Both the position numbers and the translations under genes were made by a program. DNA of 64,000 nucleotides from Oscillospiraceae bacterium (GTDB lineage Bacteria; Bacillota; Clostridia; Oscillospirales; Ruminococcaceae). The notes below the pieces were generated by a model. It made no database searches. It saw only the letters and a program-made list of their open reading frames with translations, and had not been told where the DNA came from. The stretch covers positions 1 through 64,000 of the forward strand of contig WQXO01000009.1 of NCBI GenBank assembly GCA_009784825.1, read 5' to 3'. Position 1 is the stretch's first letter. Every line of letters begins with the position of its first letter. Shown here one piece after another: positions 49,461 to 57,889 of the stretch.

Positions 49461-49468
49461 TAATGAAC
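49448..49468. repeat. heptamer repeat spanning a stop/start junction
   Basis: Units AATGAAC, AATTAAT, AATGAAC. The argF stop TAA (49458-49460) lies in the second unit and the ATG of the next gene (49463) in the third. Confidence 0.55.
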
Positions 49469-50038
49469 AGACTTATTGAACGATTTTATAATTATGCAAG
49501 AAAACAAACCGACAATGCCGTTTCAAAGGCTATTTCCGATGAGGAGGAAATCCTTTGGAGCGGCAGACCCGGTTATGTCGCTACGTTTAACATGCGTGAG
49601 GTTTTGGGTGCAATTCCCGTAATTGCAATAATATCAATAGTGGTGGGAATATTATTCAACACCGAACAATTACCGGTTGATTTTTTTATCATTGTGACTG
49701 CCTCGGGTTTATTTATTCTGTTGTTGTTTATAGCGTGGTTAAGGCAGATTTACAGATACATTAAAACGATTAACTTGTTTTACGCTGTTACTAAAACGAG
49801 AATAGTTATTGTAAAAGGCAGAGATGTCATTCGGGAAATGCCGCATGAATCAGTTGAAAACACAGCCGTCACAAAGAAATTCTTCGGTAACGGCAGTGTT
49901 GTTTTTAATGGAGGGGGAGACTATTTCACAAAAGGAAATGTGATAGAAGCCCCTACCGACAAGGTTTTCGTGTTCTTTAATGTGATGGACGTTGACGGGG
50001 TTTTGAAAAATATCAAGAATTATCAAGAATTATATTGA
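49463..50038 (+). CDS. membrane protein with bacterial PH domain
   Basis: 191 aa. N-terminal cytoplasmic part with EEEILWSGRPGYVATFN, two membrane helices (about 52-70 and 76-97), then a PH-like domain (LFYAVTKTRIVIVKGRDVIREMPHESVENTAVTKKFFGNGSVVFNG). Such bPH proteins are widespread and of unknown function. It begins 2 bp after argF, so it is probably cotranscribed, but it has no evident role in arginine synthesis. Confidence 0.75.
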   Translation: MNRLIERFYNYARKQTDNAVSKAISDEEEILWSGRPGYVATFNMREVLGAIPVIAIISIVVGILFNTEQLPVDFFIIVTASGLFILLLFIAWLRQIYRYIKTINLFYAVTKTRIVIVKGRDVIREMPHESVENTAVTKKFFGNGSVVFNGGGDYFTKGNVIEAPTDKVFVFFNVMDVDGVLKNIKNYQELY

Positions 50039-50042
50039 AAAA

Positions 50043-50069
50043 TAAAACCTAAAACATTTTTTCTACGTC
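50043..50069 (+). promoter_or_regulatory. candidate ECF-type promoter of the sigma/lectin gene
   Basis: TAAAAC (50043-50048), 17-bp spacer, CGTC (50066-50069): similar to sigma-W/sigma-M type promoters (TGAAAC, 16-17 bp, CGTC). The same AAAAATAAAACCT sequence precedes the next sigma gene at equal distance to a similar -10, suggesting that the factors recognise their own promoters. Confidence 0.55.
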
Positions 50070-50115
50070 TTAATATATAAAGGGGCATTTATTTTTATAT
50101 GTAAGGAGTTACTCT

Positions 50116-51378
50116 ATGACCGGTATTAATTTAACCCAAACAGTGGTGTCTGTTCAAAACGGAAATGAACAGGCTTTCAGAGTACTTTACAATGAATATG
50201 TCAAGCGGACACACTTCCTTGCATTAAAGCTGATGAAAAACAGTCATGATGCTGAGGAAATCACACAGGACGTATTCCAAACAGTCTATATAAAAATCGG
50301 TGAGCTTAAAAACCCCGAGGCGTTTGAGTCATGGCTTAACAGAATAACTACGAATAAATGTACAGATGCACTGAGGAAAACCAACCTGCTGACAGTTTCG
50401 AGTGCTGAAGAAGAAATTGATATTGAGTTTATAGAAGAAACCGACCACAGCCTAATTCCGCACAAGGCACTTGATAATGCTCAAACAGCACGTCTGATTA
50501 TCGAAATAATAGATAAACTGCCGCTTCCTCAGCGTGTATGCGTGTATTACTATTATTATGAGAACTTATCCGTAAAAGAAATATCAGAGCAATTAGCTGT
50601 AAATGAAAACACAGTTAAAACCCGACTTGCGTTAGCACGGGAGAAAATTCGTAAAGAATTAGAGCAGCTCGAAGAGAAAAGCGGAATAAAACTGTATATG
50701 GCTTCCCCGTTAATTCTAATCCCTGCATTTAAACTTGTTGCAAACAATACAGAACCCCCTACTGAAATGCTGAGTACAATTACTGCTGATTTGAGCTTCA
50801 AAGCACCTGCAACGGCATCTGCCGGGTTTCCGATTAAAGCAATTGCAGCAATTACTGCGGGTATTGTTGTTACGGCAGGGGTCACGACAGGTATTATTGT
50901 TTCCAATTTAAGCGGCGGTACACCGGAAAGTACCTCTACTCCGAGAACTACCTCGGAAACATATTCATTCGACACGAGCAAGGCTGTTACCTTTAACGGA
51001 CGTTCATATATGATTTTCGACGGAGTTGCCGAAACATGGGAGGAGGCTAAGTCCTTCTGCGAAGAGGAGGGTGGTTATCTCGCAATAATCAGAACACCTG
51101 AGGAAAATGAATTTTTGTATAACTATATTACATCTAATAATTTAACCTCCGCTTATTTCGGTTTGGCAAGAACAGATGACGGTGATTGGGTTTGGATAAA
51201 TAATCAACCGTTAGAATACAGCAACTGGGCACCGGGAGAGCCAAGCGGCGGGAATGAAAAATACGGAATGTTCTACCGGCAATTCACAGACGGTCAATGG
51301 AACGACGGTGACTTCGGAAGTGAAACATTAAGCGGCGGTGTTGCATTTATTTGTGAATGGGACTATCTTATTAAATAA
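50116..51378 (+). CDS. membrane-anchored ECF sigma factor with extracellular C-type lectin domain
   Basis: 420 aa, start preceded by AAGGAG. Residues 18-90 are sigma region 2 (LALKLMKNSHDAEEITQDVFQTVYIKI, FESWLNRITTNKCTDALRK); 125-183 are region 4 (LPLPQRVCVYYYYYENLSVKEISEQLAVNENTVKTRLALAREKIRKEL). A hydrophobic patch (197-210) and a membrane helix (about 242-264) follow, then a Ser/Thr-rich linker and a C-type lectin-like domain at 290-418 (TWEEAKSFCEEEGGYLA, SNWAPGEPSGG, W395-N-D, FICEW) with Cys315 and Cys413 as the outer disulfide pair. Charge distribution predicts sigma inside and lectin outside. No anti-sigma gene is adjacent. Confidence 0.85.
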   Translation: MTGINLTQTVVSVQNGNEQAFRVLYNEYVKRTHFLALKLMKNSHDAEEITQDVFQTVYIKIGELKNPEAFESWLNRITTNKCTDALRKTNLLTVSSAEEEIDIEFIEETDHSLIPHKALDNAQTARLIIEIIDKLPLPQRVCVYYYYYENLSVKEISEQLAVNENTVKTRLALAREKIRKELEQLEEKSGIKLYMASPLILIPAFKLVANNTEPPTEMLSTITADLSFKAPATASAGFPIKAIAAITAGIVVTAGVTTGIIVSNLSGGTPESTSTPRTTSETYSFDTSKAVTFNGRSYMIFDGVAETWEEAKSFCEEEGGYLAIIRTPEENEFLYNYITSNNLTSAYFGLARTDDGDWVWINNQPLEYSNWAPGEPSGGNEKYGMFYRQFTDGQWNDGDFGSETLSGGVAFICEWDYLIK

Positions 51379-51399
51379 ATTTAAATATTTTTCAAAAAA

Positions 51400-51426
51400 T
51401 AAAACCTGACGGGATTATTATGTGCC
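51400..51426 (+). promoter_or_regulatory. candidate ECF-type promoter of the sigma/LRR gene
   Basis: TAAAAC (51400-51405), 17-bp spacer, TGCC (51423-51426) followed by TTAAT. It aligns with the 50043-50069 element: same AAAAATAAAACCT and same CTTAAT after the -10 region. Confidence 0.5.
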
Positions 51427-51465
51427 TTAATTAATGTAAGGCATTTTATTTTAATGGAGGAAGCT

Positions 51466-53259
51466 ATGGAAAGTAACAGGTTAATATCAACCGTAACATC
51501 CGCACAAAACGGGAACGAAAAAGACATGGAGGCACTCTACCTCGAATTCTCAAAACCCGTTTATTACCTTGCTTTAAAGCTGTTGAAACACAAGGAGGAC
51601 GCCGAGGATTTAACGCAGGAGGTGTTCATTTACGCTTTTCAAAAAATCACCGAGCTGCGTGAACCCAACGCTTTTCCTGCATGGCTTAACAGAATTACGG
51701 CAAGCAGATGCACCAACTTTTTAACAAGGAAGAAACAGCCCGTTTTCAACGATTTAAGCGACATTAGCGACACAGACCTGCAGTTGATTGACTTTATTGA
51801 AGAAACCGACCCGCTGCTTATTCCCGAAAAATCGCTTGACAACGCTGAAACTGCACGTATGATTGTGGAAATCATAGATAATTTACCGCTCCCGCAAAGG
51901 GTTTGCGTGTATTATTATTACTATGAAAACCTGACAATTGCACAGATTGCGGAGAACCTTAACACCAATGATAACACGGTGAAAACCCGCCTTTCATTGG
52001 CACGGGAGAAAATTCGGAAAGAGTTAAAGCAACTCGAAGAAAAAGAGGGAATTAAACTTTATTCTGTTCCTCTAATGCTCACCCCCATTCTTAAAATGTC
52101 CTTACAACATTTTGAAATGCCCGCCGGACTTACACAGGAATTATGGAGCAGCATTGCTGTGAAAGCAAATGCAACTGCCGCTGCTTCATCAACCACATTA
52201 TCGGCGGCGAAAGGAGCAATTATTATGTCAACAAAGGTAAAAATTTTATTAGCAGCAGCAGGGCTTGCAGTCGTGGGGGGAGTTACTGCGGCAATCATCA
52301 TTATCGCAAACCCGTCCGACACAACACAGACAGGCAGTAATACACCGAGAGCAACCACTGAAGGTGCTTATTCCGAACCGGCAAGTACAAATAATGAATA
52401 TCACACACAACAAAACCCCAAACCACCTGTAAACGAAGAACCGTTGAACATGGTTGAGGCGGACTATTCAGGTATGGATATAACCGACCAAATGCTTATT
52501 GATATGGTGGCGAGCGGCGAAATTCCCGCTAATATCACTCATTTGGACTTGCAAAACAATAATATAACAGATATTTCACCGTTGGCAGGTCTAACCGATT
52601 TATGGTATTTAAACATATCAAATAACAATATTATGGGTGATACAGGTTTAACCTTTATTTCTGACTTGACACCATTAAACGATTTGACAAACTTGGGTCA
52701 TTTGCGAGCAACAAATAATGCAATTGTTGACCTTTCACCGTTAGAAAATTTAACAGGATTATCAATTTTGTGGTTATCACATAATAATATAGCAGACATA
52801 TCCCCATTAGCCAAGTTAGTAAATCTGAATATATTGCAAATAGCAGGCAAGTTAGTTCCGGAAAACGAAATCACGGATATTTCTCCATTAGCGGGATTAA
52901 CCGATTTAGAAAACTTAAATCTGTCGCACAATAAAAAGATTTCCGACTATTCATATATAAGCGGATTGACTAATCTGACCCATTTAAACTTGGATTATAA
53001 CGAAATCTCCGACGTAAAGGAATTAAGCACATTAATTAATATAAAAACACTTAGTTTAAACTATAACAATTTAACTGATATTACACCATTGCACAGCTTA
53101 GATAATTTAGATGTGCTTCACGTAATGGTCAATAACATCAGCGATGTTGAGCAGTTTAAGGGATTTGCTCATGTGCGTTATCTGACAATCGGGTTTAATG
53201 AAGAGCTTGATACCGCCGCAGTCAGCGAATTATTACCGGATACACAGGTGGTCAGTTGA
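51466..53259 (+). CDS. membrane-anchored ECF sigma factor with extracellular leucine-rich repeats
   Basis: 597 aa from the ATG at 51466 (TGGAGGAAGCT upstream). Sigma region 2 at about 15-88 and region 4 at about 132-188 closely match the preceding protein, including the LPLPQRVCVYYYYYENL block. A membrane helix lies at about 258-281 (KVKILLAAAGLAVVGG...), then a Thr/Pro/Asn-rich linker and 22-residue leucine-rich repeats at about 355-590 of the internalin-like type (LxxLxxLxLxxNNIxDISPLAGLT). Predicted sigma inside, LRR outside. Ends 10 bp before the convergent sigF stop. A tandem paralogue of the lectin fusion in which only the sensor differs. Confidence 0.87.
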   Translation: MESNRLISTVTSAQNGNEKDMEALYLEFSKPVYYLALKLLKHKEDAEDLTQEVFIYAFQKITELREPNAFPAWLNRITASRCTNFLTRKKQPVFNDLSDISDTDLQLIDFIEETDPLLIPEKSLDNAETARMIVEIIDNLPLPQRVCVYYYYYENLTIAQIAENLNTNDNTVKTRLSLAREKIRKELKQLEEKEGIKLYSVPLMLTPILKMSLQHFEMPAGLTQELWSSIAVKANATAAASSTTLSAAKGAIIMSTKVKILLAAAGLAVVGGVTAAIIIIANPSDTTQTGSNTPRATTEGAYSEPASTNNEYHTQQNPKPPVNEEPLNMVEADYSGMDITDQMLIDMVASGEIPANITHLDLQNNNITDISPLAGLTDLWYLNISNNNIMGDTGLTFISDLTPLNDLTNLGHLRATNNAIVDLSPLENLTGLSILWLSHNNIADISPLAKLVNLNILQIAGKLVPENEITDISPLAGLTDLENLNLSHNKKISDYSYISGLTNLTHLNLDYNEISDVKELSTLINIKTLSLNYNNLTDITPLHSLDNLDVLHVMVNNISDVEQFKGFAHVRYLTIGFNEELDTAAVSELLPDTQVVS

Positions 53260-56371: not shown

Positions 56372-57082
56372 TTATAATCTGTCTTCGATATACTCAATCG
56401 GGCAAACCCATGCATCATTCTTCCTGACTGCGAAGTGTAGGTGCGGAGGGTCGGCACATTCCGCTTCTGCGGTATTGCCTACTAATCCGATTACATCGCC
56501 TGCCATAACCTCTGCACCGACGGAGGTTTTCACCGATTTGTCAAGCCCCATATAGCTGCTTAACACTCCGTTGCCGTGGTCAATCGTAACAGTAATCCCC
56601 CACATCGGGTGTGCGAACACTTCAGAAACAATGCCCTTTTGCATTGCCTTTACCTCTGTTCCTAAGGGGGCACCAATGTCAACACCATCGTGAGTTCGCC
56701 AGACACCTAACGTATTCGACTTAACTAATTCGCCTTTGCTGAACGGATTAGTAATCTCGCCCTCGACAGGCATGAACTTAGGCTCCTGCGGTTTTACAAA
56801 GTTGTTGACCTCCTCAACATCGTCGGCTGCGGGCGGGATTGTTTCAAGCACATACACGCTATCCCCGTCCTGCACATCAATGGGAATCCCGTCAACAGGG
56901 TTCTCGACGGCGGCGGCATCCTCAGTGAAGCTTGAATCGTCTGAAATGTTCAGCTTATCAATCGCACTGTTATAGGCAATATAGGTTGACGCTCCCACTG
57001 CGGAGATGCTTAGAACGAGTGCAACAGCAAATCCTCTCCCTTTAAAAAAGCGTCTTACTCCGCCGAATTTAATTTTTTTCAT
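56372..57082 (-). CDS. spoIIQ: SpoIIQ-like LytM/M23 peptidase-domain protein
   Basis: 236 aa. Basic N-terminus, one membrane helix (about 16-37), acidic linker, and a C-terminal LytM domain with THDGVDIGAPLGTEVKA (H-x3-D zinc ligands), MWGITVTIDHGNGVLSSY and PPHLHFAVRK (HxH). B. subtilis SpoIIQ lacks the first metal His, whereas clostridial SpoIIQ keeps it, as here. In the forespore membrane it pairs with SpoIIIAH to form the engulfment channel. The nearby sigF operon supports the call; a general M23 endopeptidase is the alternative. Confidence 0.8.
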   Translation of the reverse strand: MKKIKFGGVRRFFKGRGFAVALVLSISAVGASTYIAYNSAIDKLNISDDSSFTEDAAAVENPVDGIPIDVQDGDSVYVLETIPPAADDVEEVNNFVKPQEPKFMPVEGEITNPFSKGELVKSNTLGVWRTHDGVDIGAPLGTEVKAMQKGIVSEVFAHPMWGITVTIDHGNGVLSSYMGLDKSVKTSVGAEVMAGDVIGLVGNTAEAECADPPHLHFAVRKNDAWVCPIEYIEDRL

Positions 57083-57265: not shown

Positions 57266-57889
57266 ATGCCGGATAATAACAATATAATGGCTTTTCTTGA
57301 ACGAAACCCCGATTTGTTCAAGGAAATGGGGAATATAGGAATGGGGCATTCCTGCACTGCACTTTCGCAAATGCTGGGTTCTAAGGTCAATCGCTCCATA
57401 CCCGCCGTGTGGACTCTTACTAAAGAGGAAGCGGCAGGGTATTTCGAGTTGTTTGAAGGTGGCTCACTCGGCGTTATGCTTACGCTGTGCCAGGACGTTG
57501 AGGGTGCAATTATACATATCGTCAGCCTGCCGTTCGCTTCAAGGCTGATAAACGTGTTTATTCCGAGTGAAATTAACTCCCTAAACGATATTGACGAGAT
57601 GACCATGTCAATCGTTCAGGAAATGACGAATATAACTACAGCGGCATTTGTAAACTCAATCGCCTCAATGACCGGGTTATTTATTGATATTTCGACACCG
57701 AAGTTCTGCCTTGACCTAAAAACCGAGGCGTTGGCGTTAGCACCGGAAAAGATGATTGTCGTCGAAAATCGTTTTATGGTGGACGCAGGCAGCATTAACA
57801 GTGAGTTAATCTTCATGCCTAATCAGGAGTCGTTAGGCATTATCGCCGAAAAGCTGTGCGAAAAATATAATTTTGAAATCCCCGCATAA
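57266..57889 (+). CDS. cheC: CheC-type CheY-P phosphatase
   Basis: 207 aa with two copies of the CheC phosphatase motif [S/D]-x3-E-x2-N-x22-P: D16-E20-N23 with P46 (LFKEMGNIGMGHSCTALSQML) and S115-E119-N122 (SIVQEMTNITTAAFVNSIA). Dephosphorylates CheY-P and binds CheD in Gram-positive chemotaxis. It stands alone here, away from other che genes. Confidence 0.9.
   Translation: MPDNNNIMAFLERNPDLFKEMGNIGMGHSCTALSQMLGSKVNRSIPAVWTLTKEEAAGYFELFEGGSLGVMLTLCQDVEGAIIHIVSLPFASRLINVFIPSEINSLNDIDEMTMSIVQEMTNITTAAFVNSIASMTGLFIDISTPKFCLDLKTEALALAPEKMIVVENRFMVDAGSINSELIFMPNQESLGIIAEKLCEKYNFEIPA

Follow-up and report, generated by a model that had tools for sequence, protein, structure and literature searches.

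Two adjacent sigma factors, probably membrane-tethered surface receptors with lectin and leucine-rich-repeat sensors, in an Oscillospiraceae bacterium

The first 64,000 nucleotides of contig WQXO01000009.1 of an uncultured Oscillospiraceae bacterium from the gut (assembly GCA_009784825.1; this whole stretch is called the window) contain two genes, A and B, which lie head to tail on one contig with uninterrupted frames and join a sigma factor of the extracytoplasmic function (ECF) type to a predicted membrane helix and a predicted outer domain. We consider it probable that A and B are one-protein transmembrane sigma factors: surface receptors that would be released by proteolysis and would activate their own expression. 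An earlier note on this DNA had described two adjacent genes with sigma regions 2 and 4, one helix and, as ectodomains, a C-type lectin domain (CTLD) in the first and leucine-rich repeats (LRRs) in the second, and Pfam, NCBIfam and hydropathy agree with this description. The position at which that note let the feature begin, 50043, falls at the promoter of A (50046-50069) and not at the start of gene A (50116). The features of the pair are:

50046..50069, + strand: predicted autoregulatory ECF promoter of gene A, AACC (50046-50049), 16 bases, CGTC (50066-50069), then TTAAT
50103..50108, + strand: ribosome-binding site of gene A, AAGGAG (from sequence)
50116..51378, + strand: gene A, sigma, transmembrane helix and C-type lectin protein, 420 amino acids, intact frame
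50185..50382, + strand: sigma region 2 of A (PF04542)
50491..50649, + strand: sigma region 4 of A (PF08281, residues 126-178)
50683..50763, + strand: conserved juxtamembrane motif of A, GIKLY..P....P, with modelled short helices at residues 198-209 and 217-226
50842..50898, + strand: predicted membrane helix of A, residues 243-261 (hydropathy, charge asymmetry)
51031..51309, + strand: C-type lectin domain of A, residues 306-398, with WND (PF00059, 1e-14)
51403..51426, + strand: predicted promoter of gene B, AACC (51403-51406), 16 bases, TGCC (51423-51426), then TTAATTAA
51456..51460, + strand: ribosome-binding site of gene B, GGAGG, which favours the start at 51466 (from sequence)
51466..53259, + strand: gene B, sigma, transmembrane helix and LRR protein, 597 amino acids, intact frame
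51535..51735, + strand: sigma region 2 of B (Pfam domain match)
51856..52014, + strand: sigma region 4 of B (PF08281, residues 135-187)
52249..52305, + strand: predicted membrane helix of B, residues 266-284 (hydropathy, charge asymmetry)
52486..53205, + strand: internalin-like LRRs of B (PF12799 (LRR_4), 7.7e-33; InlA profile, residues 345-584)

Gene B would encode 601 amino acids if begun at its first ATG (51454); a start at 51466, five bases past GGAGG, is likely. Full members of the family to which A and B belong number four in their own genome: A, B, C1 (with DUF6273, L040:2790-4478) and C5 (with LRRs, L041:3217-5352). Four further relatives, arranged in tandem (L042:7309-13771, that is G000:C2 about 210,300-216,800), possess region 4 only.

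By domain content both sigma modules are of the ECF type and related to SigW, with regions 2 and 4 and, in the Pfam search, no match to region 3 (PF04539) in either protein. Pfam recognizes Sigma70_r2 at 1.5e-12 and Sigma70_r4_2 at 3.2e-14 in A (1.1e-12 and 6.8e-13 in B), and the NCBIfam sigma70-ECF model TIGR02937 gives 89.1 bits for each, with a cut-off of 42.9. SigW is the best solved relative of the A module, and the alignment spans regions 2 and 4. In a structure model of residues 1-272, built on a 49-row alignment (L104, L120, L122 and one L110 gene omitted), both sigma domains mostly exceed a predicted local distance difference test (pLDDT) score of 90. The model of sigma and linker is best matched by SigW of the SigW-RsiW complex (template modelling score 0.67 by target, root-mean-square deviation 9.7), a likeness that is at most a hint of a closed state. 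The two modules, taken to be nearly identical in the earlier note, share 59-61% identity, and B is not the nearest relative of A in the tree described below.

Eight comparisons among full-length members gave a nonsynonymous divergence (dN) of 0.08-0.33 in the module; synonymous divergence (dS) was saturated in seven of them, hence no ratio is reported. The module is, to judge from these sequences, under constraint. One could regard the sigma modules as decayed relics carried along on anchored surface proteins, since region 2 is gone, and the recognition helix of region 4 altered, in the four tandem relatives from this genome. We give this idea almost no credence: the full-length members show the above dN values at saturated dS, and their promoter-contact residues co-vary with the promoters (see below).

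Hydropathy assigns a single strong hydrophobic helix to A and to B. Helix statistics were taken over 56 family rows, with the four region-4-only proteins included and one L110 gene, in which the helix was misplaced, excluded. Net charge is higher ahead of the helix than behind it in 50 rows and equal in two, and this charge difference points to a family topology with the N-terminus inside and the C-terminus outside. The family helices are rich in glycine (16.8% versus 6.2% in other helices), and a GG pair is present in 37 of the 56, compared with 9 of 152 other helices. In the 50 residues that follow the helix on the outer side, S, T, P, D and E together make up 51% on average. Between region 4 and the helix of A, the residues G190, K192, L193, Y194, P198 and P203 are invariant in an eight-row alignment, and the juxtamembrane block is modelled at pLDDT 68-79.

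Besides the outer domain of A, no CTLD was matched in the 2.18-Mb genome, and 14 control genomes searched in the same way had no match at all. The domain of A matches 160 distinct PDB sequences at E <=0.001, and the 60 listed include many CTLD receptors; its cysteines are residues 315 and 413, the latter slightly beyond the Pfam match. The WND motif has a role in the calcium sites of C-type lectin domains. The outer part of B reaches 123 bits with the internalin A model, far under the 1600-bit cut-off, and its LRR part matches solved LRR proteins, internalin A among them. Across the family, 52 outer domains were searched (L104, at a contig end, and the four region-4-only proteins were omitted). 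With overlapping LRR models kept and 25 of 28 families listed, they comprise LRR_8 (11), LRR_4 (10), BspA LRR_5 (6), Big_2 (3), DUF6273 (2), WG repeats (2) and single matches to DUF5050, Lectin_C, Lipase_3, Cu_amine_oxidN1, MORN and DUF3298.

A tree of 18 modules places A in a five-row clade with support 100/100, whose other members carry MORN, DUF6273 and, in two cases, LRRs. B stands outside this clade and joins near the clade of A or that of C5 at a fork (89/87) that is drawn open; because of this position, A and B are not a recent duplicate pair. Module and outer domains compared, the family combines a constant sigma module with outer domains that, on this evidence, are exchanged between members. 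The independent clostridial pair with swapped CTLD and LRRs that the earlier note envisaged is thus widened: swapping in clostridia is seen, but A and B are two of a larger sensor-swapping family, in which a CTLD occurs once in 52. Three members are unusual in other respects. L122:1-3591, which lacks its 5' end, has a lipase-like outer part (GHSLGG) and a second membrane helix at its end, and the one Lipase_3 match among the 52 outer domains is not assigned to a member; the distant members L132:3208-5184 and L139:3702-5924 have a zinc-ribbon-like CxxC..CxxC stretch ahead of the sigma module.

Many family genes are preceded by AACC or GACC, 16 bases, and CGTC or a variant of it; promoters of the AAC / CGTC type are those of SigW-like ECF systems. 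When the 250 bases ahead of each gene or frame are searched for the exact AACC-N16-CGTC, it is present for 10 of 52 family genes (L122, with its missing 5' end, omitted) and for 3 of 326 other frames, an uncurated control of at least 200 amino acids from the same loci (Fisher p 2e-7). The looser AAC-N17-CGT is found before 16/52 and 19/326, and the wrong spacings N12 and N22 before 1/52 each. In the close subfamily that includes A and B, 13 of 15 genes have a RACC-N16 site 46-100 bases before the start, eight with the exact CGTC and five with variant -10s. If at least three of the four CGTC letters are demanded 40-110 bases upstream, 11 of the 15 close genes and 15 of the 326 controls qualify (p 6e-11); with all four letters, 8 and 3 do (p 2e-10).

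The variant -10s go together with variant region 2.4 helices. CGTC accompanies the helix NKCTD..RK/RR in A, C5, G017a, G017b, L053, L055 and L102, and also NKCTS in L058. Both are changed in B (SRCTNFLTR, TGCC), C1 (NQCTDMLKK, AGTC), G026 (NKCTRALNK, TATC), L056 (SKCTDLLRK, CGCC) and G065a (NKCNEILRK, CATC). The Mantel correlation between -10 and region 2.4 helix is 0.77, and the partial correlation that controls for the remainder of the module is 0.80, a value reached by 0 of 5000 permutations; where a gene had several RACC sites (4 of 13), the one with the -10 closest to CGTC was chosen. A sliding DNA window gives 0.80 at the -10, 0.42 and 0.31 in two overlapping windows and at most 0.12 elsewhere, and a sliding protein window gives 0.68-0.72 at residues 73-91 and at most 0.28 elsewhere, the lowest value being -0.54. 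Because region 2.4 co-varies with the -10 of its own gene, each sigma factor most likely transcribes its own gene, with a promoter specificity that would be partly private. The earlier note had asked whether the modules retain the capacity to bind promoters: they have both regions, 2 and 4, which can be aligned with those of SigW, and this co-variation also speaks for it. A run of at least three G lies 8-13 bases past the -10 in 7 of the 13 aligned promoters (shuffle p 0.0004), in A at 50082-50085.

Genes downstream of family members often appear to encode secreted proteins. Where the next gene is on the same strand and no more than 300 bases away, its product looks secreted for 18 of 34 family members and for 28 of 120 control pairs (p 0.0014; internal starts allowed in both sets, family-family pairs left out). 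In 4 of 34 cases the outer domain of the sigma protein is also a domain of its own downstream product; other pairings give 21 such matches in 1122 (permutation p 0.0027). C1 is the clearest case: over 184 residues its DUF6273 is 87% identical to the DUF6273 at the C-terminus of a subtilase, the beginning of which resembles a signal peptide. We entertain, as a proposal somewhat short of an even chance, a plug-and-play receptor family in which the sensor is swapped by recombination, co-drift of region 2.4 and the -10 insulates the circuits, and some sensors copy a domain of the secreted protein they control. If this is true, the cell would gauge the outside demand for the very product that the operon of the sensor secretes. 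Directly after an LRR member of the family, L141:2060-3088 (minus strand, G065) has a start like the N-terminus of a sigma factor, followed by a TIR domain (PF13676, 2.2e-15).

Attempts to outline a regulon were less productive. AACC-N16-CGTC has 85 matches genome-wide and 34 in a reversed control, too weak an excess for naming a regulon, and with up to one mismatch it has 43 matches in the window, where 39.5 are expected. An extended promoter pattern has one exact match in the genome, the promoter of A; with up to two mismatches there are 12 matches and 18 in the reversed control, hence no enrichment. Only the sites of A and B among these 12 are intergenic and directly before a frame, the other ten lying inside frames of 77-795 amino acids, and for this reason the regulon of A and B may be little beyond themselves. 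One of the ten, at window positions 57029-57059 with two mismatches, is inside an opposite-strand frame and 207 bases before the frame at 57266, and is probably a chance copy; another, at L203, is also 69 bases before a frame of 127 amino acids. The solitary position of the two sites would suit a sigma factor without an outside ligand, which merely places a surface protein under its own control, or acts before membrane insertion and so reports the status of export. We judge this rather improbable: the extended pattern is insensitive and fails to detect the sites of C1 and C5, so that no regulon can be drawn from it, close modules carry differing outer domains, and the four matches between outer domain and downstream product suit the sensing of what the product meets.

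The mechanism that we favour would work as follows. The ECF module would be cytoplasmic, held at the membrane by one glycine-rich helix. The exchangeable outer sensor (the C-type lectin fold of A, the LRRs of B) would be borne on a stalk in which Ser, Thr, Pro and acidic residues abound. Ligand binding outside would expose the stalk or the helix to proteolysis: outer trimming would come first, then site-2 cleavage within the glycine-rich helix by an RseP-like protease encoded elsewhere. The freed sigma would drive its own gene and, where present, the downstream gene for a secreted protein, and such self-activation would amount to a positive-feedback switch. In a fused protein the sigma must survive release, as it does in IutY; we can only speculate that the Ala/Thr-rich linker might halt degradation. 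The earlier note was right that no site-2-type protease adjoins the pair, as no M50 protease is present among the neighbours of A and B; the genome has a gene for an RseP-like M50 protease at another place (G000:C18). The family is probably one of surface receptors released by intramembrane proteolysis. One-protein surface sensing by a membrane-tethered sigma, as the earlier note proposed, is the best reading, and the findings it had named as contrary (modules unfit for promoter binding, frames fused in assembly, absence from relatives) were sought and not found.

Several observations weigh against this interpretation. The exact AACC-N16-CGTC is missing from 42 of the 52 family genes, a bare RACC is frequent (123 of 326 other frames in the same interval), and neither G017c, whose helix is the standard one, nor G065b (NLCTDTLKK) is preceded by a RACC site. 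The co-variation was measured on 13 sequences that are related to one another; permutation leaves this kinship in place, and the partial test and the position controls meet it in part. A stricter first test for secreted neighbours was borderline (14/36 versus 26/120, p 0.05), and A and B themselves have no secreted partner: B follows A, and the next gene is on the other strand. A full-length structure model of A was discarded as unreliable (pLDDT 52). Two further points, concerning the helix and the topology, lead to alternatives of their own.

On the one hand, the glycine-rich helix would also fit helix pairing in place of proteolysis. The sigma might never be released, and ligand-driven pairing or bending of helices might let it join RNA polymerase while tethered at the membrane. 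Regulators of the ToxR/CadC type act from the membrane, the helix is rich in glycine and small residues and suits helix-helix packing, and the neighbours of A and B include no protease. We nevertheless regard activity in the tethered state as unlikely, given that the tethered sigma factor that has been studied, IutY, is reported to be activated via RseP (PMC5411451) and that an RseP-like protease is present in the genome. On the other hand, the conserved hydrophobic stretch ahead of the helix of A (residues 191-209, mean hydropathy 1.57; 1.72-1.85 in the similar stretch of the C2 relatives) could allow a two-pass topology, in which this stretch after region 4 would be the first helix and the lectin or LRR domain would be cytoplasmic. 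This is very improbable in the light of the charge asymmetry of the family rows, of a model in which the stretch forms a short helix of 12 residues, with prolines within it in the aligned rows shown, and of the 87% identity between the C1 DUF6273 and a domain of a subtilase with a signal-peptide-like start.

Release by proteolysis thus remains our preferred reading, and it has relatives among known systems. The principle of a tethered sigma factor is already known from ECF48, ECF52 and ECF53, for which fusions to membrane segments are described (PMC8999054), and the actinobacterial precedent of ECF52 and ECF53 was rightly named in the earlier note; new are the exchange of sensors and the link between promoter and region 2.4. 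The ECF52 protein SCO4117 of Streptomyces coelicolor is, like A and B, a single chain that combines an ECF module and a membrane helix with a stalk of low complexity and an outer domain, in ECF52 a carbohydrate-binding one; its autoregulation is reported, and expression was activated in a strain with truncated SCO4117 (PMC5826349). However, ECF52 has a zinc-finger domain (pfam13490) and is by its description exclusive to Actinobacteria, whereas no such finger was found between sigma and helix of A or B at E <=1, and the 11 named relatives are records of Oscillospiraceae, Ruminococcaceae and Ruminococcus. Beyond the helix, A has a C-type lectin fold that may bind sugar and B has LRRs, and unlike ECF52 their family swaps the outer domain among many folds.

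IutY (ECF243) of Pseudomonas putida likewise has sigma and membrane parts in one polypeptide; its truncated forms are reported to be active without signal, and it is processed by Prc and RseP (PMC5411451, PMC8999054). In contrast to A and B, in which Pfam finds no known anti-sigma domain at E <=1, IutY is described with an anti-sigma domain in the periplasm and has an outer-membrane receptor as its partner. The Sigma-I/RsgI systems of Clostridium thermocellum resemble the present family in being clostridial and in having paralogous surface sensors whose outer domains vary; RseP and ClpXP are reported to take part, ClpXP degrading the released RsgI fragment and so freeing a separate sigma (PMC12203970), and sigma-I is usually autoregulated (PMC6056542). 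There, two genes are involved, RsgI being a separate anti-sigma with an autocleavage domain, and within the sigma-70 family sigma-I is said to form a separate group, whereas A and B are single chains with ECF-type modules. By analogy, A and B may function as a condensed form of Sigma-I/RsgI or IutY, a single polypeptide in which no anti-sigma domain is recognizable. A clostridial ECF group with a regulatory extension, ECF262 (SFB89493.1, Ruminococcus albus), is listed under 'Others' with its mechanism unassigned (PMC8999054 Table 2); it may be the catalogue name of the group of A and B, to go by that single table row. No clostridial description of the architecture of sigma, membrane helix and sensor was found by title or abstract opening among the matches listed, subscription papers being mostly out of reach.

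A search for the family at 1e-35 picked out 5 of the 71 genomes of the genus. The order sample yielded 33 of 394: 29 encode frames of 350 amino acids or more, and four (G042, G102, G121, G225) have plain frames of 197-208 amino acids only. In the class sample, 14 of 391 match, every frame being at least 396 amino acids long. The own genome is counted, G000 and G200 are in both the order and the class sample, and the order, class and phylum counts are lower bounds, since up to six first-look candidates were scored per genome. With the architecture recurring in 29 order and 14 class genomes, it is very unlikely that A and B are assembly fusions of separate genes. A phylum survey with a broader model (A4) matched 187 of 398 genomes; the matches listed are nearly all plain ECF factors, matched in the sigma part only, and among them frames over 500 amino acids come from the own genome, G561 and G1055 only. 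A plasmid search returned 96 records, all below 60% identity. Among the 11 named relatives, eight records belong to Oscillospiraceae, two to Ruminococcaceae and one to Ruminococcus; from the isolate names, we take several of them to stem from termite or cockroach guts. Seven loci (L050, L051, L052, L054, L057, L059, L060) were omitted as duplicates of genome stretches already included, a plain ECF of 165 amino acids beside the DUF5050 gene of G017 was left out of the family rows, and L055 has masked bases in its outer part.

The region-4-only relatives kept region 4, linker and helix and lost region 2, and their N-terminal parts are 79-89% identical to the first of them. Their outer domains differ (DUF6273 twice, DUF5050, and one with no known domain), and the recognition helix reads DEVGERL in place of NTVKTRL. 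No other copies of this kind were found among the 71 genus genomes at 1e-8. They are possibly decoys or silent cassettes.

Upstream of the pair lie genes for an amino-acid kinase, a class-III aminotransferase and an ornithine/aspartate carbamoyltransferase, which we read as argB, argD and argF, and then, between argF and gene A (window 49463-50038), a membrane protein of 191 amino acids, for which no Pfam family reached its cut-off and NCBIfam PuhB gave 30 bits (cut-off 110). Downstream, on the opposite strand, a SigF-like sigma factor, a HATPase_c_2 protein and a STAS protein are read as a convergent sigF-spoIIAB-spoIIAA unit. SpoIIAB is an anti-sigma factor of SigF. Canonical ECF factors have an adjacent gene for a membrane anti-sigma factor, whereas domain searches of the neighbouring genes found none adjoining A and B; the statement of the earlier note that no anti-sigma factor is adjacent therefore holds for the A-B unit and for the membrane type, but not for the SpoIIAB-like protein nearby, which belongs to the sigF unit. 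The genome as a whole is small yet rich in sigma factors, with 33 region 2 matches, 31 of them above the cut-off, in 2.18 Mb.

ECF sigma factors are usually under the control of separate anti-sigma proteins. At least 26 ECF groups with extensions are recorded, 15 of which still await study (PMC8999054 section 3.5), and the characterization of C-terminal extensions is described as only just begun (PMC8103513). The family of A and B supplies about 50 natural sensor combinations on one chassis together with a link, at sequence level, between region 2.4 and the -10, and these make direct testing of tethered-sigma switching feasible. It could also allow insulated surface-sensing circuits to be built, for example in Bacillus subtilis.

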